Below are positions 12,155 through 54,910 of a DNA stretch of 64,000 bases, in pieces; the first letter of the stretch is position 1, and each line of letters opens with the position of its first letter. A program made the translations under genes and the position numbers. The notes beneath the pieces were generated by a model, which had not been told where the DNA came from, searched no databases, and saw nothing but the letters and a program-made list of their open reading frames with translations. Source of the stretch: Tenuifilaceae bacterium CYCD (GTDB taxonomy: Bacteria > Bacteroidota > Bacteroidia > Bacteroidales > Tenuifilaceae); the NCBI GenBank assembly GCA_036322835.1, contig AP027304.1, positions 186,001-250,000 of the forward strand, given 5' to 3'.

Positions 12155-13600
12155 TTAAGAAACTTGTTGAGCGATAGCAGGTGCTGAATCTACTGCAATT
12201 TGAAGCTGTTTTGCTGCTATTTTAGGATTGCTAATTACATTGCAACCACCAATACACCCACCCTCGCAGGTCATTACCTCAACCAAATTGGCCGTTGGAT
12301 TTTTAGGAAATGATTTAAGCTGTCTTATCGCAGCTTTATCGATACCGTTTATCTGAAGATCTATAATATTACTATTATCTGTGACTCTTTTTACTGCCAA
12401 GGAAACGCCTCCCGATGCGGCAAAACCACGAGCCTCAGCAGCAGGAATATTTTCAATCACTGCTGGTTCTATGGAATTAAGGTCAATTTTTGCAGCAACC
12501 AACCAAGCACCGTACTCCTCGAAACTTAAAGCATAATCTACGTTAGGATTGTGAAAGACCTCCCATCGCTTAGCGGGGCATGGACTAACAAAAACAATGC
12601 AAGCATTGGGATGTTGTGCACGAACCTGCTCGGCACTGTAGTACATCGGCGTTTTTGTATGCGAAACATATGGTTTTAGTGTATCAATATGCTTATCGAC
12701 CAACGAGGTGTACGCAGGACAACAACTGGTGGTAATAAATTTACCACCACTACTCAAGCGCTCTTCCAACTCTTCGGCTTCGAGCCTTGCAGTAGTTTCA
12801 GCACCATGAGCAACTTCATACACATACTGAAAACCTATCAATTTAAAACCATTGATAATTCTACCCAAATCAACACCAAACTGACCCGCAATTGCAGGAG
12901 CAAGTAAGGCAACCAGTGTTTTTTTTTCATGTTTACTTTTAAAGATATCTACTAAACTAGACTTTTCAACAACTGCACCAAAAGGGCAAGCGGATAAACA
13001 TTTTCCACAATTGATACACTTAGAAATATCTATAGACTCAACCCCATTCTCATTCTTACAGATAGCCCCAACAGGACAAGCCTCCTCGCAGGGCACTGGT
13101 AGATAAACGATAGCATGGAAAGGGCAAACCTTCATGCACTGGCCACAGTTTACACAGGCAGCATGATCGATTTTAGCCTGCCCATCAACAAACGAAATAG
13201 CATTTTTAGGACAATTGACCATACATGGACGCGCCACACAACCTCTACACAGATTCGATACCATATAGCTGGTCTTGCGGCATGACGAGCAAGCCTCATC
13301 TACAACGGTAAGAACAACGTCGGTTAAATTGGTTCGATCAATTGCCATACTAGCATATTCCGAAAGTGGAGTTAACTCATCGGTTTCGTCGTGTATATTA
13401 AATCCCAAAAGACCCATTAATTTATACTTAAGCACTGCTCTATCCTTATGAATACAGCATCTGACCGATGGATTATTTCGAGGACGCATTTCCAAAGGGA
13501 TTCTATCGATCTTTTCCACAAGTTGATCCTCCATCAACAACCGAATCATTCGGGTTATAAGATCGCGCCTTATAAGCATTGCATTATTAGTAACAGCCAT
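12155..13600 (-). CDS. [FeFe] hydrogenase, group B type
   Basis: This 481-residue protein has the group B1/B3 N-terminus (AMLIRRDLITRM, then RIPLEMRPRNNPSVRCC and DELTPLSEYA), several [4Fe-4S] motifs (CVNCGQCMKVCP about 149-160, CINCGKCLSACP about 195-206 and an upstream cysteine-rich segment 104-130) and the H-cluster motifs. L1 is TSCCPAY (291-297), L2 SPCPAKRWE (339-347) and L3 EVMTCEGGCIGG (441-452). All H-cluster cysteines appear present, so it should be catalytic, making or consuming hydrogen with ferredoxin. The group's physiological direction is poorly known. It is the last gene of the redox operon. The maturases HydE, HydF and HydG are not in the window. Confidence 0.9.
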   Translation of the reverse strand: MAVTNNAMLIRRDLITRMIRLLMEDQLVEKIDRIPLEMRPRNNPSVRCCIHKDRAVLKYKLMGLLGFNIHDETDELTPLSEYASMAIDRTNLTDVVLTVVDEACSSCRKTSYMVSNLCRGCVARPCMVNCPKNAISFVDGQAKIDHAACVNCGQCMKVCPFHAIVYLPVPCEEACPVGAICKNENGVESIDISKCINCGKCLSACPFGAVVEKSSLVDIFKSKHEKKTLVALLAPAIAGQFGVDLGRIINGFKLIGFQYVYEVAHGAETTARLEAEELEERLSSGGKFITTSCCPAYTSLVDKHIDTLKPYVSHTKTPMYYSAEQVRAQHPNACIVFVSPCPAKRWEVFHNPNVDYALSFEEYGAWLVAAKIDLNSIEPAVIENIPAAEARGFAASGGVSLAVKRVTDNSNIIDLQINGIDKAAIRQLKSFPKNPTANLVEVMTCEGGCIGGCNVISNPKIAAKQLQIAVDSAPAIAQQVS

Positions 13601-13612
13601 ACCAATGCTCTC

Positions 13613-13870
13613 CTATGAATTTAATTCGTGGTGAATTTCAGCAATTAACGATTGAATAGTTACCTGCGACAAACGTTTTCCGTTTATTGTGGCAAAAGGA
13701 GGTCTTCCATTTTCAGGAGAATCGCATAGGTTTAAACATGGCGAGCCTTTAATATTTACCTTATCCTTTAACTCGATAGGCAAATGCTCGTTCAGCATTT
13801 GCAACTCCGCTCCGCCCATCAAGTAGCAAAGTGTACCCGAGCATATAACAATGTCAATTTTCTTTTCCAT
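13613..13870 (-). CDS. Thioredoxin-like [2Fe-2S] protein (NuoE-type)
   Basis: An 85-residue protein with the cysteine pattern of thioredoxin-like [2Fe-2S] ferredoxins: CSGTLC near residue 10 and CLNLC near residue 45. Similar small subunits (NuoE/HydC-like) pass electrons in NADH dehydrogenases and multimeric hydrogenases. It lies 12 bases upstream of the hydrogenase gene and 7 bases after the phosphatase gene, so it probably serves one of the two hydrogenases in this operon. It is distinct in sequence from the paralogue at 16785-17042 but has the same layout, suggesting one for each hydrogenase subunit. Confidence 0.82.
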   Translation of the reverse strand: MEKKIDIVICSGTLCYLMGGAELQMLNEHLPIELKDKVNIKGSPCLNLCDSPENGRPPFATINGKRLSQVTIQSLIAEIHHELNS

Positions 13871-13877
13871 AGTAGAA

Positions 13878-15071
13878 TCAAATAAATTGAATATTAACTT
13901 CTTTTAAAAACTTCTCCTCAAGCAAATGAGCGATTTTGCGCATCACATTTCGTCTAATTTCAAGTTCTACAGGGAGCGATGGATCCTGATGCGCAACGTT
14001 GATTTTAGTACCCACCAAAAGATCGATTACATCGGATTCGAGCATCAACTTTACAATTGCAACTGCAGGACCCGTACCCTGTACCTCGGTACCATGCAAC
14101 TGCTCAAGCATTTCGGCAACCCTGCCGATGGTGAGAATTCCCTCGGTTACTAAATCGACCCCATCCATCTGTGACGCGGGGGGAAGACCCGAACTATCGA
14201 TAGTTAAACCAACATTAATTTTGATACCCAATTCTCTTGCAATAATTATAGATGTGGTACCACCACAGATGATTTTCTTACCATCGAACGATTGGGCTAT
14301 TTCGGCCAACTGCCTATCCTTCGATTCATCGAAAGGTGGTCCCGAGCATATAAGCAACCTTCGTGGACTTCGAAAATGAATTACAGCACAGGTTATATCG
14401 TCCTGCGGTTTGTAAACGTCGTTTGCACAAGACTTACGCACAACGCTTCTGGCTAAGTCGTGAGCGGAAACTGAACTGTTGCTCGTTAGGTAACTACAAA
14501 CAAACTGCCTATACGCATCATCGCCAAAACCAAATGGCATCTGGGCTGTTCCGATTCCCGATTGGGTTACTCCATCGGAAACAATCACAATCCTGTCATC
14601 CATTTGTAGCTTGAAATGTGAAAGAAACATCTTCCGGGTTTTCCCATCCTCCAAATCGATGCAGAGCATTTGCTTTGGAACATCCAACGGTAACCCATTA
14701 CGAACCAAAATCCATCCCGGATTATCGAATTCAATAATTCGAGTATCTCCTCCGCACTCAATATCGGCAATGGTAAATGTTGCATAACTGATTTGACGCA
14801 AGCTATCCACCGGAAGTGTTTGCATAATTATTCTAGCCGTTCGATCAATTGGTTGCTTTTCGAGTGTAAAATTTACAGCCATAGATGCTGTAAGCGTAGC
14901 CAAAACATTAGCCTTAACACCACTTCCAAGACCATCGGAAACCACCACAATGGTGCGCTCCTCCTCCTTTATTTTCCTTGATAGAAACACATCACCACAA
15001 ACCTGACGTCCAAACTTGGAAAGCTGTGCACAGTCCACATCAACATGAAATATTTTAGTCGGTATTGGCAT
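13878..15071 (-). CDS. SpoIIE-type serine phosphatase of the hydrogenase sensor module
   Basis: The 397-residue protein has a PP2C/SpoIIE phosphatase domain in about residues 1-230: VVVSDGLGSGVKAN holds the first metal-binding aspartate, IVIVSDGVTQSG the second and DDITCAVI the last. A C-terminal domain (about residues 235-390, beginning SGPPFDESKDRQL) is typical of phosphatases found beside [FeFe] hydrogenases. Its start overlaps the PAS-hydrogenase gene by 17 bases, a sign of tight translational coupling. The inferred role is to dephosphorylate an anti-sigma-factor antagonist or similar partner in response to the hydrogenase sensor. No STAS or anti-sigma gene is visible in the window. Confidence 0.85.
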   Translation of the reverse strand: MPIPTKIFHVDVDCAQLSKFGRQVCGDVFLSRKIKEEERTIVVVSDGLGSGVKANVLATLTASMAVNFTLEKQPIDRTARIIMQTLPVDSLRQISYATFTIADIECGGDTRIIEFDNPGWILVRNGLPLDVPKQMLCIDLEDGKTRKMFLSHFKLQMDDRIVIVSDGVTQSGIGTAQMPFGFGDDAYRQFVCSYLTSNSSVSAHDLARSVVRKSCANDVYKPQDDITCAVIHFRSPRRLLICSGPPFDESKDRQLAEIAQSFDGKKIICGGTTSIIIARELGIKINVGLTIDSSGLPPASQMDGVDLVTEGILTIGRVAEMLEQLHGTEVQGTGPAVAIVKLMLESDVIDLLVGTKINVAHQDPSLPVELEIRRNVMRKIAHLLEEKFLKEVNIQFI

Positions 15072-16788
15072 GGTTTTCCTTGTAAAGTTCCATTATTGAG
15101 TTGAGCATGGTTTCGGTTCGCGATGCATTTTCGCCCAGCAAATAGGCAATCTGCTGAACTGTTTCAAGGTTTTCCTTGATAACCGATTTGGTTCGAACCA
15201 CAATCTCATCGCTTCGGACATCAGGATTACTTAAATCCCGCATTATTGCACAAACCGTTTTATGCGCCTGAATTGTAAATATTGAGACCTTGAGCATATT
15301 TCCATTGCCTTTAACATCCCTATCAAGAATATCTCGGCCAGTACTCAAAACCATCGAGAATAATTTATGGAATGGAAGCATCTTGGTTAGATTAGCACCA
15401 GCCATTCCTGGATTAGCATCGTAAATTAATTGAATTTCCTCGCCCAGCATCCGTGCAGCACTTTGATTGCACTCCACAACCTTTAAACTCTCATCCACAA
15501 TAATCACCCCGCTAGGCATTCGCTGGAGCAATACCGTCGCCTTATCGTGAGCAACCCTACGCATGTAGGAGATACACATATTCCGTTCAGCCTTTCCATC
15601 GAGCATTGCAATGGCAAATTCTTTACAACTATCGTAACCACAACCGCCACAATTCAACTCATCCTTACTCGACAATTTGCCTGCCGATCTCAACGCATCG
15701 GTTATTTCGCTTATTGAGTACTGTCTTTTGGGCGTGGCAAACAATGTCTCTCCTGAACCTGTAATATCAATGCTAGATACCAACTCTTTCCCTGAGCCAA
15801 TGGAGGTTTGCTTTTGCTTTGTTAAGTTCAGTACTTGATTTTGCCGAAAGGCCATCGAACCCTGATTTATGGCTCCTGGCCCATTTATACAGCCACCCGT
15901 ACAGGCCATCAATTCAATAAAAACCTTAGAGGGAGAATTCCACTGCTCTATATCCATTAGCACCTGTTTAACGGCATCGATACCACAAAAAGACATGAAT
16001 TGGACATCGGATAAGGAATTATCTTTATTTATTCCAGAAATCATTCCTCCATCAACAGGATAAATAGAGCCGGATACCGCCTCGACCGGTTCGAAAAATG
16101 AGTTATTAGATATTGGCTTTTCGAAATTGACCCATTCCTCCTCCATCCAATCCATCAACTCGCGAAAGGTAATGCAGGCATCTACCAACTCAGGGCTTCT
16201 ATCCGATTCCCTCTTCTTGGCAATGCAGGGTCCAGCAAAAACAACATGTACATCCTTGCCATAGCATTCCTTTAAATACTTGGCATGAGCCATAAGAGGC
16301 GATAACGCAGGTAATATCTTGGACGAAGATTGCGGATAGTGTCGATTGATTAAATCAACTATCACCGGACATGCCGATGAAATCACAACCCCAGCATCGT
16401 TCTTACACAAAAATTTTCGGGTATGCCTATTCACCATCTCAGCCCCAAGAGCTGTTTCCGAAACCGCGAAAAAACCTAACTCCTTAAGGGCTGAAACCAT
16501 AGCCTGTGAATCTACCCCTTGGAAAGAACTAACCCACGATGGCGCCAAGGAAAGAATCACCTTATCGCCTTTCCTAATCAACATCTTTATGATATCAATA
16601 TCGGATCTTACCTTTTTAGCCCCAACGGGGCAAACCTCAACGCATTTTCCACAGGCAATACACAAATCATCTATAACTGAAGCACAATCATTGGCAATTT
16701 TTATAGCCTTAACCGGGCAATACCGAATGCATTTGTAGCAATCCTGGCAGTTGTTCTTTTCGGTGTATATGGGTTGTGCTATATTCAT
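15055..16788 (-). CDS. Sensory [FeFe] hydrogenase with Fe-S and PAS domains (HydS-like, group C)
   Basis: Domains in order over 577 residues are two [4Fe-4S] ferredoxin motifs (CQDCYKCIRYCP about 14-25 and CIACGKCVEVCP about 43-54), an [FeFe] hydrogenase H-domain, a four-cysteine Fe-S domain (CGGCGYDSC plus a later C, about 380-405) and a PAS domain (about 420-510). H-cluster motifs are altered: L1 is SSACP (137-141) where catalytic enzymes have TSCCP, L2 is GPCIAKKRE (186-194) and L3 ELMACTGGCING (292-303). Such changes and the PAS tail are known from putative hydrogen or redox sensors. Overlap with the phosphatase gene suggests the signal goes to it. No transmembrane region is seen. Confidence 0.85.
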   Translation of the reverse strand: MNIAQPIYTEKNNCQDCYKCIRYCPVKAIKIANDCASVIDDLCIACGKCVEVCPVGAKKVRSDIDIIKMLIRKGDKVILSLAPSWVSSFQGVDSQAMVSALKELGFFAVSETALGAEMVNRHTRKFLCKNDAGVVISSACPVIVDLINRHYPQSSSKILPALSPLMAHAKYLKECYGKDVHVVFAGPCIAKKRESDRSPELVDACITFRELMDWMEEEWVNFEKPISNNSFFEPVEAVSGSIYPVDGGMISGINKDNSLSDVQFMSFCGIDAVKQVLMDIEQWNSPSKVFIELMACTGGCINGPGAINQGSMAFRQNQVLNLTKQKQTSIGSGKELVSSIDITGSGETLFATPKRQYSISEITDALRSAGKLSSKDELNCGGCGYDSCKEFAIAMLDGKAERNMCISYMRRVAHDKATVLLQRMPSGVIIVDESLKVVECNQSAARMLGEEIQLIYDANPGMAGANLTKMLPFHKLFSMVLSTGRDILDRDVKGNGNMLKVSIFTIQAHKTVCAIMRDLSNPDVRSDEIVVRTKSVIKENLETVQQIAYLLGENASRTETMLNSIMELYKENHANTD

Positions 16789-17042
16789 AGTATAGGTTTG
16801 AAAACTTTATTTAATATTGGGAGAACATTGGTTGGAGTAACCGCCTCGTATTTTTGATTATCAATCCATATTACAGGGCCTTTATTACAAGATTCCGAGC
16901 AAAGTTGCCCCTTAAAAGCAACCTTATCCTCTATATTATTAGATTTCAGATACTCTTTAATAACCTCCAAGGTTTCCCTATTCCCCCTTGAAAAGCAAGA
17001 ACTTCCAAGGCAAATCACTATTTGAATTTTAGCATCTTTCAT
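16785..17042 (-). CDS. Thioredoxin-like [2Fe-2S] protein upstream of the hydrogenase sensor
   Basis: This 85-residue protein begins at the ATG at 17042; a longer in-frame extension up to 17198 lies inside the rex gene and is not credible. Cysteines CLGSSC near residue 11 and CSESC near residue 49 give the NuoE-like [2Fe-2S] pattern. Its last four bases overlap the start of the PAS-hydrogenase gene in an ATGA arrangement, so the two are translationally coupled and probably form one electron-relay unit. It is the sister of the small protein at 13613-13870. Confidence 0.82.
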   Translation of the reverse strand: MKDAKIQIVICLGSSCFSRGNRETLEVIKEYLKSNNIEDKVAFKGQLCSESCNKGPVIWIDNQKYEAVTPTNVLPILNKVFKPIL

Positions 17043-17082: not shown

Positions 17083-17769
17083 CTAAATTGATAGTAGAGA
17101 GGAGCTGTTCTTGTACAATGCAATAAGCGATGTATAATCCTCACATATATCGCTAGCCAAAGAACTTTGCAGCTCAACAATACCCTTTGGAATCTCAATA
17201 CTTCTATGTGTAAAATTCCAAAGCATTTTGATGGAGGAATTGCAAATTATATCGGCAGCAACCTGTGTATCCTTTGAAGGTGTAGCCATTATTGCCAGCA
17301 CAACGTTCATCCTATGAATAATATCATTGAAATGAAGAGTACTCAAAACCCTAACCCCAGCAATTTCTGTATTCATCAATAATGGGTTGATATCAAAAGC
17401 GGCAACAATTCTGATATTACATTTACAAAATCCTTCGTCGGCCAACAAAGTTCTGGCCTGCCGACCACACCCCACCAAACAAGCCTCTTCCACCCTATAG
17501 TATCCCAAACAATTCGAGATTAGCTGAAGCAATAAACCCACACTGAATATCTCTCTCACACCATCGGAAAAACCCAACAAGGAAAAATCCTGCCGAATTG
17601 TAGAAATATCAACATGCTGGAAGTCTGCAAGTGACGAGATAGAAGTCTCGGTTCTTCCTTTTACTGCAAGTATCCTTAAACTTTTCAGGTAGTTCTTAAG
17701 CCTTATAAGTAAATCGGCGTCGATTGTTTTTACAGTATCTGATATTGACAAAGGTGTTTGCATTTTCAA
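17083..17769 (-). CDS. rex: Rex-family redox-sensing repressor, divergent
   Basis: The 228-residue protein has the Rex order. An N-terminal winged helix (about residues 15-80) includes a recognisable ISSLADFQHVDISTIRQDFSLL segment (the family's S-x-x-LA...R-x-D-L pattern). A Rossmann domain starts at LVGCGRQA (about 98) and the C-terminal NFTHRSIEIP block matches the family's NFAP-x-x-L-x-VP. The glycine motif is GCGRQA rather than the usual G-x-G-x-x-G, and the family's GKRGVGY-like linker is not seen, so NADH binding may be altered. Rex normally represses fermentative genes and lets go when NADH is high. It lies between nfnB and the hydrogenase genes; candidate operators are at 21328-21345 and 23559-23576. 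Confidence 0.8.
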   Translation of the reverse strand: MKMQTPLSISDTVKTIDADLLIRLKNYLKSLRILAVKGRTETSISSLADFQHVDISTIRQDFSLLGFSDGVREIFSVGLLLQLISNCLGYYRVEEACLVGCGRQARTLLADEGFCKCNIRIVAAFDINPLLMNTEIAGVRVLSTLHFNDIIHRMNVVLAIMATPSKDTQVAADIICNSSIKMLWNFTHRSIEIPKGIVELQSSLASDICEDYTSLIALYKNSSSLLSI

Positions 17770-17820: not shown

Positions 17821-19215
17821 TTAGTTAGATAATATCTTTTTTAAGTATTCATCTATTGCCTTTGCTGCTTTACGCCCGGCCTCCATTGCCAAAATCACAG
17901 TAGCGGCACCAGTAACAGCATCGCCACCAGCAAAAACGCCTGTACGTGTAGTTGCCCCTGATGCATCTGTCACATAAACCCCACCCCATTTCTCAGCAGT
18001 AAGGCCATAAGTAGTATTAACCACCAATGGATTTGGAGATGTTCCCAACGACATTATCACCATATCACAAGGAACTATAAATTCAGAATTAGGAATAACC
18101 TCCGAACTCCTACGCCCCTTTGAATCGGGTTCGCCAAGCTGCATCTTTACACATTCCAAATCTTTCACCCATCCCTTTTCATCTCCTCGTACCTGAACCG
18201 GATTGCTCAGGAAACAGAATTCTACGCCTTCTTCTTTTGCATGATGCACCTCTTCAGCACGAGCAGGTAATTCGGCATCGGATCGTCTATAAACAACTTT
18301 CACATTAGCGCCAAGCCTTATAGCGCAACGCGCTGCATCCATCGCTACGTTTCCACCACCAACAACAACTACACTTTTTCCAGTATAAACAGGAGTATCA
18401 TAATCAGAATCAAACGCTTTCATAAGGTTGATCCTTGTCAAAAACTCATTGGCAGATACAACTCCGTTAAGATTCTCGCCAGGAATATTCATAAATTTTG
18501 GTAATCCCGCACCGGAACCAATGAATACTGCTCCGTAGCCCTCTTTATTCATCAAATCGTCAATCGTAATTGTTCTACCAATAATTACATCTGGTTCAAA
18601 CCTGACACCGAGTTTTTTCAGATTATTGATCTGTTGATTTACAACATCTTTTGGAAGTCGAAACTCAGGAATTCCATAAACAAGAACACCTCCAGGCAAA
18701 TGCAAAGCTTCAAAAACCGTTACTTTATAACCCCATTTTGCTAAATCCGAAGCGCACGACAGCCCTGCAGGTCCCGATCCAACTATAGCAACCTTACCTT
18801 TTACCGTATGAATTGGTGCAACCAGCTCAATATTGTTCTCACGACTCCAATCTGCTACAAAACGTTCTAACTTCCCTATGGCAACAGGCTGTCCTTTTAT
18901 TCCTCTAATACAGGCCCCTTCACACTGAGACTCCTGAGGACAAACTCTTCCGCAGATTGCAGGTAAACTTGAGTCCAAATCAATAACCTTTGCGGATTCA
19001 AGCAAATCGCCATTTTTAAGGTGATTTATAAATTGAGGTATCTTTATAGAAACAGGGCAAGCAGCAACGCATTTTGGATTTTTGCATCCCAAGCACCTTG
19101 ATGCCTCCTCCTGAGCGTCGGCCAAACTATACCCCAAGCAAACCTCGTCAAAGTTATTCCTGCGAACAGATGCTAGCTGTTCCGACACTGCAACCCTTTT
19201 ATTTACATCTCTCAT
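17821..19215 (-). CDS. nfnB: NfnB / glutamate synthase small-chain-like subunit
   Basis: The 464-residue flavoprotein has an N-terminal Fe-S domain (CLGCKNPKCVAACP about 42-55, then CGRVCPQESQCEGAC about 88-102), an FAD-binding GSGPAGLSCASDL (about 150) and a second nucleotide motif GGGNVAMDAARC (about 287), as in NfnB and GltD. With NfnA it forms the ferredoxin-dependent bifurcating NADH:NADP+ transhydrogenase, balancing NADPH against NADH and ferredoxin. Its start shares one base with the nfnA stop. The adjacent nfnA makes NfnB far more likely than a glutamate synthase subunit, as no GltB is present. The alternative name SudA/SudB refers to the same architecture. Confidence 0.88.
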   Translation of the reverse strand: MRDVNKRVAVSEQLASVRRNNFDEVCLGYSLADAQEEASRCLGCKNPKCVAACPVSIKIPQFINHLKNGDLLESAKVIDLDSSLPAICGRVCPQESQCEGACIRGIKGQPVAIGKLERFVADWSRENNIELVAPIHTVKGKVAIVGSGPAGLSCASDLAKWGYKVTVFEALHLPGGVLVYGIPEFRLPKDVVNQQINNLKKLGVRFEPDVIIGRTITIDDLMNKEGYGAVFIGSGAGLPKFMNIPGENLNGVVSANEFLTRINLMKAFDSDYDTPVYTGKSVVVVGGGNVAMDAARCAIRLGANVKVVYRRSDAELPARAEEVHHAKEEGVEFCFLSNPVQVRGDEKGWVKDLECVKMQLGEPDSKGRRSSEVIPNSEFIVPCDMVIMSLGTSPNPLVVNTTYGLTAEKWGGVYVTDASGATTRTGVFAGGDAVTGAATVILAMEAGRKAAKAIDEYLKKILSN

Positions 19216-20096
19216 TATGCAGTCCTCCCAATTTTACAGATATGATTTTTATGCTCTAATGCCCTAAGCTTTAACCCCTCCTCTGTTCTATACATATTCA
19301 ATCGACGAATCGCCTCATCAAAATCAACCTTGTGAGCATCAAACTCAGGCCCATCAACACAGGTAAAAACTGTTTTGCCATCAACCGTAACCCTGCAAGC
19401 ACCACACATTCCAGTCCCATCGACCATAAGAGTATTTAAACTGGCAATAGTTGATATGCCGTATCTCTTTGTGCAATCAGCCACAGATTTCATCATCATC
19501 ATTGGGCCCACCGTAATTACATAATCGTACTTTTTACCATCAGAAACCAACTGGCTTAAAACATCCGTAACCAAACCCGAATAGCCAGCACTACCGTCGT
19601 TTGTTGATATATATAAATTGTCGCAAACAACCCCAATTTCATCTGAAAGAATAAGTAACTCACTAGTCCTTGCTCCAAGAACTACATCAACGATTGCTCC
19701 ACATTTATTTAGAAATTTTACCTGCGGATAAATTGGTGCAGCACCAACACCTCCAGCGATAAACAAGAAGCGATGTTTTGAAATATCTTCAACACTCAAA
19801 TGGGTAAACTCCGAAGGTTGTCCTAATGGTCCTGCAAAATCAAGAAAAGAATCACCCTCCTCTAAAGTGCAAATGATACGAGTACTTGCCCCCAATGCTT
19901 GAATCACAATTGTAACAGTACCTTTTACCGTATTATAGTCGGCAATTGTTAAAGGAATTCGTTCGCCTTTACTGTACGCTCGCACTATCACAAATTGGCC
20001 AGGTTTTGCCGACAAGGCCACACGAGGAGCTTCAACCTCCATTAAATAAATATCCTTAGCTAAAATCTTTTTCTTTACAATCTTAAACATGACCAA
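19215..20096 (-). CDS. nfnA: NfnA, ferredoxin-NADP+ reductase-type subunit
   Basis: The 293-residue protein resembles PyrK/NfnA: an N-terminal FAD beta-barrel (RIPLTIADY near 51), an NAD(P) domain starting about 110 (FIAGGVGAAPIYPQ) and a C-terminal [2Fe-2S] cluster in GMCGACRVTVDGKTVFTC (about 230-247). In Nfn this subunit holds the FAD that exchanges electrons with NAD and connects through its Fe-S cluster to NfnB. The coupling to nfnB and the hydrogenase genes downstream suggests shared use of reduced ferredoxin. It begins 40 bases after the alcohol dehydrogenase stop, with a weak terminator between. Confidence 0.88.
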   Translation of the reverse strand: MVMFKIVKKKILAKDIYLMEVEAPRVALSAKPGQFVIVRAYSKGERIPLTIADYNTVKGTVTIVIQALGASTRIICTLEEGDSFLDFAGPLGQPSEFTHLSVEDISKHRFLFIAGGVGAAPIYPQVKFLNKCGAIVDVVLGARTSELLILSDEIGVVCDNLYISTNDGSAGYSGLVTDVLSQLVSDGKKYDYVITVGPMMMMKSVADCTKRYGISTIASLNTLMVDGTGMCGACRVTVDGKTVFTCVDGPEFDAHKVDFDEAIRRLNMYRTEEGLKLRALEHKNHICKIGRTA

Positions 20097-20136: not shown

Positions 20137-21303
20137 CTAGAAGTTAACTGATTGACCGTAGTAAATTGCTGTAAGCAACTTTTTAAAGTCTTCGGCATTG
20201 GTTGATCTTGGGTTGCAACCTGTACAAGCATCTTCAACCGCATTGTTGGCTATTCTATCCAAGTTGTTCTTGAAATCGCTCTCCTTAACACCGTACTCTT
20301 TCAGAGTTGAAGGGATCTCCATTTTACAGTTTAAATTTTCAAGTAATTCAACATAAGAATCAACAAGTTCGGCGGAAGTGCTTCCTTTTAAACCCAAGAA
20401 TTTTGCAATATCGGCATATCGCTCAGCACAACACTTTTGGTTATAACGCACTACATAAGGCAAGTAAATTGCATTAGCACAACCATGTGGTATATGGAAA
20501 ATGGCACCAGTCTTATGGGCTAAACTATGAGTAATTCCTAACAGAGCATTGGAGAACGCCATTCCTGCTAAGCACTGTGCAATATGCATTTTCTCGCGAG
20601 CAACCTTATTGCCATTGTAAGAATCAATCAAATTGTCAATAATCATTTGAATTGCCTTTAATGCTAAAGGATCAGAGAAGTCGCTACGAGCAGATGCAAC
20701 GTACGCTTCAGTTGCATGGGTCAATGCATCCATCCCTGTATGTGCAGTTAACTGCTTAGGCATAGTCTCTGCCAATGCTGAATCGAGAATTGCGATATCT
20801 GGAGTGATCTCAAAATCAGCCAAAGGATACTTTATCCCTTTCGAATAATCTGTAATAACGGAGAATGCGGTAACTTCAGTAGCAGTTCCACTGGTTGAAG
20901 GTATTGCAATAAATCTTGCTTTGTTTCTAAGCTGTGGGATGTTGAAGGGTTTTGCAACTTCTTCAAATTTTGCCTCGGGATGCTCGTAAAAAATCCACAT
21001 TGCCTTAGCGGCATCAATTGGAGAACCTCCCCCTATGGATACAATCCAATCAGGATTATACTCACGCATTGCCGCAGCACCTTGCATTACAGTCTCTACG
21101 GAAGGATCAGGCTCAACACCTTCAATCAATCTAACATCCAATCCTGCTTCTTTCAAATAGGACTCAACCTTATCCAAAAAGCCAAAGCGCTTCATAGAAC
21201 CACCCCCTACTACAATCATCGCTCTTTTTCCTTTAATGGATTTAAGAATCTCTAAAGAATTCTCTCCAAAATAGATGTCTCTTGGTAATGTAAATCGTGC
21301 CAT
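20137..21303 (-). CDS. Iron-containing alcohol dehydrogenase
   Basis: This 388-residue group III dehydrogenase resembles the alcohol dehydrogenase half of AdhE. It has the nucleotide-binding VSIGGGSPIDAAKAMW (about 88-104), IPSTSGTATEVT (about 138-149), the helix MDALTHATEAY, and metal ligands in GITHSLAHKTGAIFHIPHG (about 258-276). It most likely reduces acetaldehyde or another aldehyde to the alcohol with NAD(P)H, disposing of reducing power. The upstream region holds a sigma-54 promoter, activator-like sites and a Rex-like operator. It stands directly before the Nfn-hydrogenase operon and directly after the sigma-54 activator gene, which is its probable regulator. Confidence 0.9.
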   Translation of the reverse strand: MARFTLPRDIYFGENSLEILKSIKGKRAMIVVGGGSMKRFGFLDKVESYLKEAGLDVRLIEGVEPDPSVETVMQGAAAMREYNPDWIVSIGGGSPIDAAKAMWIFYEHPEAKFEEVAKPFNIPQLRNKARFIAIPSTSGTATEVTAFSVITDYSKGIKYPLADFEITPDIAILDSALAETMPKQLTAHTGMDALTHATEAYVASARSDFSDPLALKAIQMIIDNLIDSYNGNKVAREKMHIAQCLAGMAFSNALLGITHSLAHKTGAIFHIPHGCANAIYLPYVVRYNQKCCAERYADIAKFLGLKGSTSAELVDSYVELLENLNCKMEIPSTLKEYGVKESDFKNNLDRIANNAVEDACTGCNPRSTNAEDFKKLLTAIYYGQSVNF

Positions 21304-21327: not shown

Positions 21328-21345
21328 TTGTTATTTAATTAACAC
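21328..21345. promoter_or_regulatory. Rex-like operator in the alcohol dehydrogenase leader
   Basis: The 18-base site has arms TTGTTA and TAACAC and fits the clostridial-type Rex consensus TTGTTAANNNNTTAACAA at 12 of 14 defined positions. It would lie just downstream of the predicted start (about 21350), where a repressor could block elongation. A site differing at two positions is at 23559-23576. Confidence 0.55.
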
Positions 21346-21360
21346 TTCGATATACATTTT

Positions 21361-21375
21361 CCAACACTCGTGCCA
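21361..21375 (-). promoter_or_regulatory. Sigma-54 (-24/-12) promoter of the alcohol dehydrogenase
   Basis: On the minus strand the sequence reads TGGCACG-AGTG-TTGG, against the consensus TGGCACG-N4-TTGC, so only the last base of the -12 box differs. It lies 58 bases before the ATG at 21303. A sigma-54 activator gene is immediately upstream. Confidence 0.75.
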
Positions 21376-21580: not shown

Positions 21581-23485
21581 TTATATCTGAATTGAATACT
21601 GCTTACATTTTAAGTACAGAGTGTTGCGGCTTATACCTAATATTTTTGATGCTTTGGAGATATTACCATTACAAAGTTCAATTGTTCTACACACAGCCTC
21701 GCATTCAATATCGGCCAAGGATTTTAACTTTGTTTCTTTTAAATTTTCTTGGTTAGTCAACGGACTAGATTCTCCGTAATACTTCTTTCTAAACTCTTGC
21801 TCATTCTGAACATCGAGCAAAATCTGACCGTTGAGATTCACGGTTTTCTCAATAAAATTCTCAAGTTCTCTAATATTGCCGGGCCATTCGTACCTAAGCA
21901 ACATTTGATATGTTTCACTATCAATACTTGGCACCTCCTTGTTAAGTTTTATGGCCTTGCTATTCATAAAGAATTTAATAAGCAACGGTATGTCCTCCTT
22001 ACGCTCTCTAAGAGGGGGAATTTTAAGAGGAATGACACTTAATCGATAGTATAAATCTAGTCGAAAATTATTAGAATCGATCAGTTCTTTAAGATCCTTA
22101 TTTGTTGCAGCAATAATTCTTACATCCAATGGAATAGTTTTGCTCCCACCTACCCTGCAAATTTCGCCTTCCTGAATAGCACGTAACAGTTTAACCTGCA
22201 TATCCATTGGCATCTCGCCAATTTCGTCCAAAAACAAGGTTCCACCATTAGCCAGTTCAAATTTTCCGGGTCGTCCACCCTTCTTTGCACCAGTAAAAGC
22301 GCCATCCTCATATCCAAACAATTCACTCTCAATTAATGACTCTGGAATTGCACCACAATTTACAGCAACAAAACTAGAATCACGCCTTGAACTCTCGTTA
22401 TGCATCGCTTGAGCAAAAACTTCCTTTCCCGTACCACTCTCGCCGGTAATCAATATAGTAGAAGGACTATTCGCTACATTTCTGGCAAAATCGATAACGC
22501 GTCTAATCGATTCGCTTGTCCCGATAATATCATCAAAAACATAATGGGCATTCATACCTGTGTACTTATTCACAATTTTGTACACCCTTTTCATATCTCT
22601 AAAAGTAAGGACTACGCCATGTACATTAAAATCATCGAGAATTATTGGCATAGCATTCATCATAAATGTTCCTTTTAACGGAATATTTTTAATGGCAATC
22701 TCCTCATCAAGTATTCTATTGGAGCAGCTAATAACTTTCCAGATATCGTTCCATTTATCGAGATAATCGCTTATATGCTTTCCTTTTAATGCATCCCTTT
22801 CGATACCGAATAAATTACAAGAAGTATTATTAACCCTAGAAATATACCCTTCGGTATCCACTGTAAAAATAGCAAAAGATAAGTTATTAATTATAGCATC
22901 TAAATGCCTTGATGTTTCGTGTAACTCTCGGTTTAGTATCGTATTCTTAAGATCTTGTTCAATTGACTTAACTGCGGCCACAACTAAACCCAGAGTATGA
23001 GGATGTACAAGGTTATATTTTCCAGTTAAATTGATTAGACCAATGATATCGCCTTGAGAGTTATGGATTGGTGCAGACGAGCATGTCCACCGGTGATAAG
23101 CATTTATAAAGTGTTCCTGAGCGGTTACCTGTATAGGTCTATCCTCACGTATTGCAAGCCCCATAGCATTGGTTCCAACACTGTCCTCCGCCATGTATGC
23201 TCCTTTTATCATATTCAATGCCTTGGCATCCTTTACTGTTTCAGAATCACCAAGTAAATCAAGAATACAGCCATTACCATCGGTAAGAATAATAACAAAA
23301 CCCGAACCTCTAACAATATCATAAAGATTATGAATAATCGGAATTGCTGTATTGATAAGTGACTCGTTGTCTATTAACAACTTTCTCAGGTCTTCGCCCT
23401 GCAAAATCTTCTTAGGAAAAAGCAAATCATGCTCTATTCCGTAATTAGCACTTCTACAGTGTGATTTTTCAATTATTTCATCCAT
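21581..23485 (-). CDS. Sigma-54-dependent activator, AcoR-like (GAF-PAS-AAA-HTH)
   Basis: The 634-residue protein has an N-terminal sensory GAF-like region (about 40-180; EDSVGTNAMGLA and APIHNSQGDIIGLINLTG are typical of AcoR), a PAS domain (about 190-300), an AAA+ domain and a C-terminal Fis-type helix-turn-helix (about 600-634). The AAA+ domain has Walker A GESGTGKE (348-355), the sigma-54 loop GAFTGA (395-400) and Walker B GGTLFLDE. It should activate sigma-54 promoters by ATP hydrolysis. The nearest such promoter is that of the adjacent alcohol dehydrogenase. The effector (acetoin, an alcohol or an aldehyde) cannot be inferred. A Rex-like site lies about 75-90 bases upstream. Confidence 0.9.
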   Translation of the reverse strand: MDEIIEKSHCRSANYGIEHDLLFPKKILQGEDLRKLLIDNESLINTAIPIIHNLYDIVRGSGFVIILTDGNGCILDLLGDSETVKDAKALNMIKGAYMAEDSVGTNAMGLAIREDRPIQVTAQEHFINAYHRWTCSSAPIHNSQGDIIGLINLTGKYNLVHPHTLGLVVAAVKSIEQDLKNTILNRELHETSRHLDAIINNLSFAIFTVDTEGYISRVNNTSCNLFGIERDALKGKHISDYLDKWNDIWKVISCSNRILDEEIAIKNIPLKGTFMMNAMPIILDDFNVHGVVLTFRDMKRVYKIVNKYTGMNAHYVFDDIIGTSESIRRVIDFARNVANSPSTILITGESGTGKEVFAQAMHNESSRRDSSFVAVNCGAIPESLIESELFGYEDGAFTGAKKGGRPGKFELANGGTLFLDEIGEMPMDMQVKLLRAIQEGEICRVGGSKTIPLDVRIIAATNKDLKELIDSNNFRLDLYYRLSVIPLKIPPLRERKEDIPLLIKFFMNSKAIKLNKEVPSIDSETYQMLLRYEWPGNIRELENFIEKTVNLNGQILLDVQNEQEFRKKYYGESSPLTNQENLKETKLKSLADIECEAVCRTIELCNGNISKASKILGISRNTLYLKCKQYSIQI

Positions 23486-53581: not shown

Positions 53582-54910
53582 CTAATTAACCGTAAATCTG
53601 CTGCTTATCGTTTTTATGCCCACTAATCGCCAATACCTAACCGATGGTGACTTGTAGAAAACCGTTACTTGGTAAGTATTTTCGGTTGAGTAGTGATTCC
53701 CCTCCAACCTAGAATGGCTAACTATACCTGATGCCCCATCAACAGTGACATACCTATAGTTATAGTAACCCTGCTTAAGCAGAGCTTTTAACTCGTAAGA
53801 GTTGCTTTGGTGGTTATAGGTCAATTTGTAATCTGGATTGATAGCCCAGCCAGTAAACTCACCATAAACATAGACATCAGTATTTTCTAACTCTGGAATA
53901 TTTAAAGTAAAGTAAACCCAGGCATAATCAGCCTCAACATTGCTATCGTTGGAATCATCACGTTTTACAATATACTTACCGTCTAAATCTGGATTCTCGG
54001 AATAATCCTGTCTAAAATTATTGAAATCGGGACTCAGCCTAACATGCATCTCTGCTCCATAATTCTCTATTCTGACAATTTGGGGTGTCTGGTACGAGTA
54101 TGATTTTATGTTGATATTACGATACTCGTTGCAACCATCAAAAATCAAACATTCGGGCGATGTATACCTAATTTTATCCTGAGATATATAAGTCGATTTT
54201 ATTCCAACCAACTGATTATCGGTTTGCCCATTCTGACAAACAACCGTAACGATATCGTGGTCGGGATCTATGCTTCCTAAAGGTTTTACATCAACCTCCA
54301 ATTCCATTTGCTGAGAAGTGAATGTAAGGCTTGGATCCAAACTCTGGCGTATTTTTGCATTCATCGAAAGCTTTGGCTCCACCACCATGAATCGCTGCAG
54401 GAGAACCACTTTATCGTGATCGTAACTATCCACTACCTTTAAAATGTAGTTGCCCGAAATCTTAAAATTTACCTGATCGTTAGGAAAGCTTAAACTGTAA
54501 TGAATATACGACTGTATTGTACCCATGGAGTTTCTATAATTGTCCACACGGTTATACTCAAATCCATTACAGTAGTCCATATATATTAAATCGGATGACT
54601 GCCAGTTGTAGGTGCAATGAATAAAAGTGTAATCGTACGATGAACCTTCATCCGACAAATCATCAAACTCCACGGTAATAGTTTCATCGCTATTTAACTC
54701 AACTATCGGATTGTTCAAATCGCGCCCAGTACGGTATGCCTTAACCGATTTAATTGATGGTAAACAATAATTTTCGACAAACTTCGTATTATCCAGAACA
54801 TTTTTAGCCCCCAATGTGTTGTTATTTCCATAACAAAGCATTAGGGTTATAATTAAAAATGAGATCTTTAATCTATTAATATCTGAATATATGGATATGT
54901 TGATAAACAT
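53582..54910 (-). CDS. Type IX secretion plug protein (DUF5103)
   Basis: About 442 residues from the ATG at 54910 (a TTG codon just upstream is possible). It has a hydrophobic N-terminus, then the DUF5103 features: IKSVKAYRTGRDLNNPIVELN, DYTFIHCTYNWQSSDL and YMDYCNGFEYNRV, and a C-terminal domain with VYGEFTGWAINPDY. Known members act with the SprA translocon of the type IX secretion system, closing its pore from the periplasmic side. A promoter of the TTTC-N19-TATCTTTG form precedes it. The sprA gene is not in the window. Confidence 0.85.
   Translation of the reverse strand: MFINISIYSDINRLKISFLIITLMLCYGNNNTLGAKNVLDNTKFVENYCLPSIKSVKAYRTGRDLNNPIVELNSDETITVEFDDLSDEGSSYDYTFIHCTYNWQSSDLIYMDYCNGFEYNRVDNYRNSMGTIQSYIHYSLSFPNDQVNFKISGNYILKVVDSYDHDKVVLLQRFMVVEPKLSMNAKIRQSLDPSLTFTSQQMELEVDVKPLGSIDPDHDIVTVVCQNGQTDNQLVGIKSTYISQDKIRYTSPECLIFDGCNEYRNINIKSYSYQTPQIVRIENYGAEMHVRLSPDFNNFRQDYSENPDLDGKYIVKRDDSNDSNVEADYAWVYFTLNIPELENTDVYVYGEFTGWAINPDYKLTYNHQSNSYELKALLKQGYYNYRYVTVDGASGIVSHSRLEGNHYSTENTYQVTVFYKSPSVRYWRLVGIKTISSRFTVN

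Follow-up and report, generated by a model that had tools for sequence, protein, structure and literature searches.

We analysed a cluster of five genes at positions 12155 to 17042 of a 64,000-nucleotide (nt) stretch of DNA from Tenuifilaceae bacterium CYCD (contig AP027304.1, positions 186,001 to 250,000), hereafter called the window. All five open reading frames (ORFs) are intact and located on the minus strand, and they are tightly coupled, as the first-pass annotation had described. In the direction of transcription they encode an HfsA-like 2Fe-2S protein, HfsB, HfsC, a second small cysteine-containing protein and HfsD. The genes for HfsA and HfsB overlap by 4 nt and those for HfsB and HfsC by 17 nt, while the remaining gaps measure 7 and 12 nt. 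The cluster belongs to the known hfs/HydS-phosphatase class, as a well-conserved and ordinary representative, and is not a new system. Its features, with domains called by Pfam and NCBIfam profile searches and lengths in amino acids (aa), are as follows:

16785..17042, minus strand: HfsA-like small thioredoxin-fold [2Fe-2S] protein, 85 aa (PF01257, E=1.2e-9; Cx4C...Cx3C)
15055..16788, minus strand: HfsB, 577 aa (PF02906, Fe_hyd_lg_C, E=8.8e-46; FeS domain PF04060; PAS_8)
13878..15071, minus strand: HfsC, 397 aa, SpoIIE/PP2C-type Ser/Thr phosphatase (PF07228, E=7e-12)
13878..14366, minus strand: C-terminal domain of HfsC, a separate alpha/beta domain (AlphaFold2 pLDDT, the per-residue model confidence, 90.4 when folded alone)
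13613..13870, minus strand: second small protein, 85 aa, Cx4C...Cx3C, probable [2Fe-2S] protein (weak alignment with HfsA proteins; no Pfam or NCBIfam match)
12155..13600, minus strand: HfsD, 481 aa, catalytic group B1 monomeric [FeFe] hydrogenase (TIGR04105)

Proteins of the five-gene cluster

HfsB combines two N-terminal [4Fe-4S] clusters, the H-domain, a Cx2Cx4Cx16C cluster, a PAS domain and a C-terminal helix carrying the motif LLGE. The four H-cluster cysteines are kept, and SSACP replaces the catalytic TSCCP (C299 to A). By these motifs, HfsB is identifiable as a sensory group C-type (M2f) [FeFe] hydrogenase; the group C motif definitions, including Cx2Cx4Cx16C, were taken from PMC8163306. 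The PAS domain, the C-terminal [4Fe-4S] motif and the C299 replacement are common to HfsB and TmHydS of group C (M2f). However, HfsB is paired with a phosphatase in place of a fused histidine kinase. Judging from the homologues and the C299 replacement, H2 would be the signal read by HfsB. TSCCP is kept in HfsD, which scores 488.6 bits with TIGR04105 (cut-off 450) and thus belongs to group B1. The division into a sensory and a catalytic hydrogenase, already proposed from the sequence alone, was therefore right.

A post-PAS helix of the pattern VI..NL..VQ.I..LLGE.A..tE..LNSI ends HfsB. It is conserved across 94 HfsB relatives and is among the best conserved parts of the protein. In our comparison set (L### for loci and G### for genomes, with G000 being the window's own genome), three species of one genus carry clusters of HfsA, a PAS-helix-only protein and HfsC (L216, L217, L218; L225-L227), and no hydrogenase domain was found within those clusters. 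The PAS-helix-only protein is 168 aa long and consists of PAS and the helix VAQEIAGLLGETTAETK; its companion HfsC is 33-34% identical. Because these hydrogenase-free clusters keep the 2Fe-2S protein, the PAS-helix and the phosphatase, the PAS-helix probably contacts the phosphatase. Gene content suggests that it is probably the part acting on HfsC, with the hydrogenase as one possible input.

HfsC matches SpoIIE with 46 bits (cut-off 25) and aligns with it across the metal-site Asp motifs. The AlphaFold2 model (pLDDT 88.5) places the PP2C part (aa 9-233) closest to 3pu9, SpoIIE and RsbX. By its profile score, modelled fold and metal-site aspartates, HfsC is identifiable as a SpoIIE-type PP2C phosphatase. 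The loss of metal ligands, which the first-pass annotation had named as a finding that would speak against its proposal, was not seen: the metal-site residues are intact, and D27, D46, D166, D224 and D225 are invariant in 44 diverse relatives. The PP2C fold and the metal-site Asp are shared with SpoIIE, RsbU and RsbX, but HfsC lacks an N-terminal regulatory or input domain, has a C-terminal domain of its own and does not have a conserved STAS partner.

This C-terminal domain of about 160 residues (aa 236-397) is Rossmann-like, was not mentioned in the first-pass annotation and is previously undescribed. Its conservation slightly exceeds that of the phosphatase part (mean majority frequency 0.64 vs 0.58), and its motifs are GPP, GxTT, LPPxSxM, TEGILTL and GTxINxAHQDPxLPVELEIRR. 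It matched no Pfam family at gathering level and no NCBIfam family. A Foldseek search against the PDB gave a best match of E=9.5e-3 with a structural similarity score (TM) of 0.28, and no convincing fold. No known fold or family could be assigned to it, and the weak Rossmann-like matches with TM ~0.3 are not interpretable. In 395 genomes of the phylum the domain was never found apart from the phosphatase, but always in ORFs of ~384-447 aa.

hfs loci in other genomes

HfsC relatives are encoded in more than 580 stretches of one genome scan, and the best 80 loci were compared. These come mostly from Bacteroidota and a few other phyla; the taxonomy of metagenome-assembled genomes (MAGs) was taken from their titles. 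The relatives occur in Bacteroidota, Spirochaetes, Riflebacteria, Hydrogenedentes and others. HfsB and HfsC are adjacent in nearly all of the 80 loci across many phyla, with HfsC nearly always following HfsB, and HfsA adjoins HfsB in most related loci. The order of the window genes is not due to chance, because Spirochaetes, Riflebacteria and alphaproteobacterial MAGs also have HfsA-B-C-(2Fe-2S)-HfsD. In loci of the window type HfsC is followed by the small 2Fe-2S protein and HfsD, and this second 2Fe-2S-like gene between HfsC and HfsD recurs in diverse phyla. In an alternative form, hfs is divergent from a HydABC-type hydrogenase with a histidine-kinase-fused sensor and a response regulator. 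The genome of the window encodes a second HfsABC copy (L058), which the first-pass annotation had not mentioned and which is of this HydABC-divergent form; a kinase-fused relative lies at L058:16704-18701. Outside the order, rex-hydC-hydB-hydA-hfsB-hfsC recurs in L229-L231, L234 and L235 and is split in L236/L237. L204 shows the order rex-adhE-hfsA-hfsB-hfsC-hfsD.

Clusters of this kind have been described before. In Thermoanaerobacterium saccharolyticum/thermosaccharolyticum, hfsABCD encodes a small protein, a PAS sensory hydrogenase, a serine phosphatase and a monomeric group B hydrogenase (PMC11837493), which is the same co-directional order and domain content as in the window. Deletion of hfsA or hfsB in T. 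saccharolyticum increases adhE transcripts and ethanol, and this effect needs hfsC and hfsD (PMC5707799). The window differs by its additional small 2Fe-2S-like gene between phosphatase and hydrogenase, by the connection to adh, nfnAB, rex and a sigma-54 activator (see below) and by its Bacteroidota host. Ruminococcus albus has an eight-gene cluster that combines adhE and a hydrogenase with a group C sensor and a Ser/Thr phosphatase. This cluster is down 111-fold in co-culture, a condition of low H2, and its phosphatase was already proposed to act on regulators downstream (PMC6776011). A group C sensor, a phosphatase, a catalytic hydrogenase and an alcohol dehydrogenase are common to this cluster and the window, but R. 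albus has a group A1 catalytic hydrogenase and a bifunctional AdhE, whereas the window has group B1 and an iron-containing alcohol dehydrogenase (Fe-ADH).

Surrounding genes and candidate regulatory elements

The cluster belongs to a putative larger unit reaching 23485, which had been overlooked in the first-pass annotation: a sigma-54 activator, followed by Fe-ADH, NfnAB, Rex and hfs. Judging by spacing and strand, the stretch from adh to hfsD would be one transcript. The features upstream of hfsA are:

17083..17769, minus strand: Rex-like NADH/NAD+ sensing repressor, ~40 nt upstream of hfsA
17821..19215, minus strand: NfnB-like protein of an NADH-dependent ferredoxin:NADP+ oxidoreductase (with NfnA-like, spans 17821..20096)
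19215..20096, minus strand: NfnA-like protein of the same oxidoreductase type, adjoining NfnB-like
20137..21303, minus strand: iron-containing alcohol dehydrogenase (PF00465, E=6.6e-47; PF25137, E=5.6e-62)
21328..21345, minus strand: Rex-like palindrome GTGTTAATTAAATAACAA, between promoter and adh, with 1 mismatch to the pattern
21360..21375 (searched pattern), minus strand: candidate sigma-54 -24/-12 promoter TTGGCACGAGTGTTGG, 11/12 consensus positions
21581..23485, minus strand: sigma-54 enhancer-binding activator, AcoR-like, GAF-PAS-AAA-Fis (PF00158, E=2.7e-72; HTH_8, GAF, PAS)

The NfnB/NfnA-like pair scored 577 bits (TIGR01316) and 392 bits (NF004862), each over the cut-off, and the Rex-like protein was just below it (NF003994, E=3e-37, 128 bits, cut-off 130). 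Rex adjoins hfs in several distant lineages, and nfn genes are found beside hfs in L066 and L067. The order is adh-nfn-hfs in L066, compared to adh-nfnA-nfnB-rex-hfs in the window, and a 75% identical Fe-ADH gene is present in the same order in L066/L198. We also observed that in L066 (G089:C11) both hfsB-hfsC and hfsA-hfsB-hfsC-2Fe2S-hfsD follow adh-nfnA-nfnB, so that the sensor-phosphatase pair is duplicated locally.

The same activator adjoins hfs in six further loci (L064, L066/L198, L108, L109, L111, L112). The activator-adh intergenic region of the window contains a terminator-like hairpin with a T run, and none of 2000 shuffles gave a sigma-54 match as good as the candidate promoter. 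A sigma-54-like element scoring 10 or 11/12 was present in all seven activator-linked intergenic regions, with shuffle P values from 0/2000 to 0.016 each. The element of L064, with 314 nt between it and the next annotated gene downstream, is the least certain. The candidate Rex site upstream of adh is suggestive only: matches to the Rex-like pattern within the window are near chance overall, and a good palindrome is absent from most other activator-linked loci. L108 has a perfect Rex-like palindrome between the sigma-54-like element and hfsA. Elsewhere in the window, at 54819-54836, lies a perfect palindrome of the Rex-like pattern, TTGTTATTTCCATAACAA.

Taken together, hfs is tied to NADH and ethanol/H2 metabolism, because it is linked to rex, hyd, adhE and adh-nfn genes. 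This linkage agrees with the data from Thermoanaerobacterium and R. albus.

The phosphatase target and the role of the cluster

The first-pass annotation had expected the phosphatase to act on a phosphoprotein such as a STAS-domain antagonist, had noted that none is encoded at the locus and had suggested searching the genome for STAS and anti-sigma genes. The locus was described correctly, since no STAS or RsbW-type gene is present anywhere in the window; none was found within the hfs neighbourhoods examined in the own genome and in lineages outside the order either. The genome search did detect both families: STAS matched three times in the own genome and HATPase_c_2 several times. Free STAS genes are located at C1:161496 and C1:3569759, and an RsbW-like gene at C1:1186088. 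The same genome encodes 28 SpoIIE-type phosphatase domains vs the three STAS matches. However, these families are not constant companions of HfsC. Among 52 HfsC-positive genomes of the same order, 13 had no STAS match (9 of the 48 of good quality). In G020, G034, G079 and G113 the only STAS match was in a long ORF the size of SulP; G079 (100% complete) and G113 (99%) lacked free STAS proteins as well as HATPase_c_2 matches. A STAS antagonist as target is thus unsupported as a rule.

In classical partner switching, HfsC would dephosphorylate a STAS anti-anti-sigma factor held by an RsbW-type kinase, leading to release of a sigma factor. Such a role would fit the resemblance of HfsC to SpoIIE and RsbX, the free STAS and RsbW-like genes of the own genome, and the presence of STAS and HATPase_c_2 genes in 16 of 16 HfsC genomes outside the order, a lineage that may carry both generally. 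But the genes of both families are unlinked to hfs in the compared loci and missing from some near-complete HfsC genomes, as described above, and in the own genome 28 SpoIIE domains would compete for few STAS proteins. We regard this explanation as very improbable. A universal STAS/RsbW partner is rejected as a rule by the genome surveys, in which divergent STAS proteins or MAG gaps may hide cases.

A different candidate kinase, which the first-pass annotation had not mentioned, is encoded just outside the window, ~22 kb from HfsC. There, an operon (G000:C1:169700-181900; L059:11717-19785, L060:354-4857) encodes two bifurcating-type hydrogenases, a group D sensory hydrogenase, two DRTGG proteins, a PHP protein, an RsbT/RsbW-like ATPase (HATP143) and a second histidine-kinase-like ATPase. 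We found nothing relevant in the literature on DRTGG/PHP/HATPase hydrogenase operons. HATP143, which lies beside the group D HydS and DRTGG genes, could oppose HfsC by phosphorylating the flanking DRTGG proteins, so that two hydrogen sensors would share one phosphorylation circuit. Its sequence retains ExxxN and a GFGAGMGL lid resembling that of RsbT, the DRTGG proteins have a conserved SDLxSDV motif in common, and HATP143 adjoins HfsABC in L075, L124, L202 and G029. In a set of 149 genomes, both proteins were encoded in 38, only HfsC in 14 and only HATP143 in 10; for the 101 genomes with an [FeFe] hydrogenase the odds ratio was 10.6 (P=1.2e-7, a value that ignores shared ancestry and overstates the association). 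Nevertheless, HATP143 is part of its own conserved operon, and the genomes with only one of the two proteins indicate that the pairing is not obligatory. Overall, this circuit seems unlikely; HATP143 as an obligatory kinase was rejected on account of the 14 HfsC genomes that lack it, but it was retained as an alternative explanation.

HfsC could also act locally, on the HfsB/HfsA complex, the hydrogenases or the alcohol dehydrogenase, thereby affecting enzyme activity and not gene expression. G113, in which no RsbW-type kinase was detectable, has only two [FeFe] hydrogenase domains, those of HfsB and HfsD. In T. saccharolyticum, NADH-dependent alcohol dehydrogenase activity increased without a matching rise of aldehyde dehydrogenase activity, which its authors ascribed to possible post-transcriptional control (PMC5707799). 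But the cluster itself encodes no kinase, and adhE transcripts do change in the hfsA and hfsB mutants (PMC5707799), which makes purely local action decidedly unlikely. A crude motif search for Hanks-type kinases over 1.50 of the 2.2 Mb of G113 yielded none that was convincing, which is weak evidence.

We consider the cluster likely to be an hfs-type H2/redox-sensing operon that controls the phosphatase HfsC, with an output adjusting the fermentation route. HfsB would act as a slow sensory [FeFe] hydrogenase reading H2, and its FeS clusters together with HfsA may also read the ferredoxin/NADH redox state. Binding of H2 would alter the PAS domain and the C-terminal LLGE helix, which in turn would bind and control HfsC, a predicted Mg/Mn-dependent Ser/Thr phosphatase. 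Dephosphorylation of a phosphoprotein by HfsC would then tune HfsD, the alcohol dehydrogenase and NfnAB, while the upstream sigma-54 activator probably drives transcription of the unit, with Rex as its probable repressor. We observed directly the genes present, their intact active sites, their conserved linkage, the separable PAS-helix module and the candidate promoter elements; in this scheme we infer H2 as the signal, the physical contact between HfsB and HfsC, the direction of the effect and the substrate. The hydrogen-responsive switch of the first-pass annotation, with its target left unnamed, is therefore the best reading and has already been proposed for homologous systems (PMC5707799, PMC11837493, PMC6776011); the STAS target as a rule did not hold. 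The question of the phosphatase target is real, but it is already stated in the published literature.

Several observations argue against an operon of this kind. Orthology to Thermoanaerobacterium hfsABCD rests on gene order and domains, not on sequence comparison, and the sensory role is called putative even in characterised relatives (PMC8924675). The distant rex-hyd-hfsBC loci show no hfsA, and HfsB-HfsC fusion proteins were not found among ~95 loci. The HfsC copies of L172, L183, L184 and L187 have no neighbouring HfsB. As a separate observation, the HfsC genes without adjacent HfsB (these four and L077) are followed in several genomes by genes for proteins of ~192 aa, 330-370 aa and 567-580 aa.

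The findings that go beyond the published systems are the negative result for STAS, the operon context, the C-terminal domain of HfsC and the hydrogenase-free PAS-helix variant. It is possible, though we propose this only tentatively, that HfsA, the PAS-LLGE helix and HfsC form a general redox-to-phosphatase module in which the sensory hydrogenase is just one interchangeable input and no STAS/RsbW switch is used. Either a nucleotide-like ligand or the substrate would then bind to the C-terminal domain of HfsC, and the module would represent a class of its own within bacterial Ser/Thr phosphatase signalling. The way in which fermenters sense H2 and choose between H2/acetate and ethanol is a question of relevance for biofuels and rumen methane. 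Our comparison narrows it: STAS, the canonical target, is unlikely to be the general one, and sensor and phosphatase probably make contact through a defined helix at the C-terminus. The genes that are the likely output (adh, nfnAB, rex and the sigma-54 activator) are physically linked to the cluster, consistent with Thermoanaerobacterium genetics.

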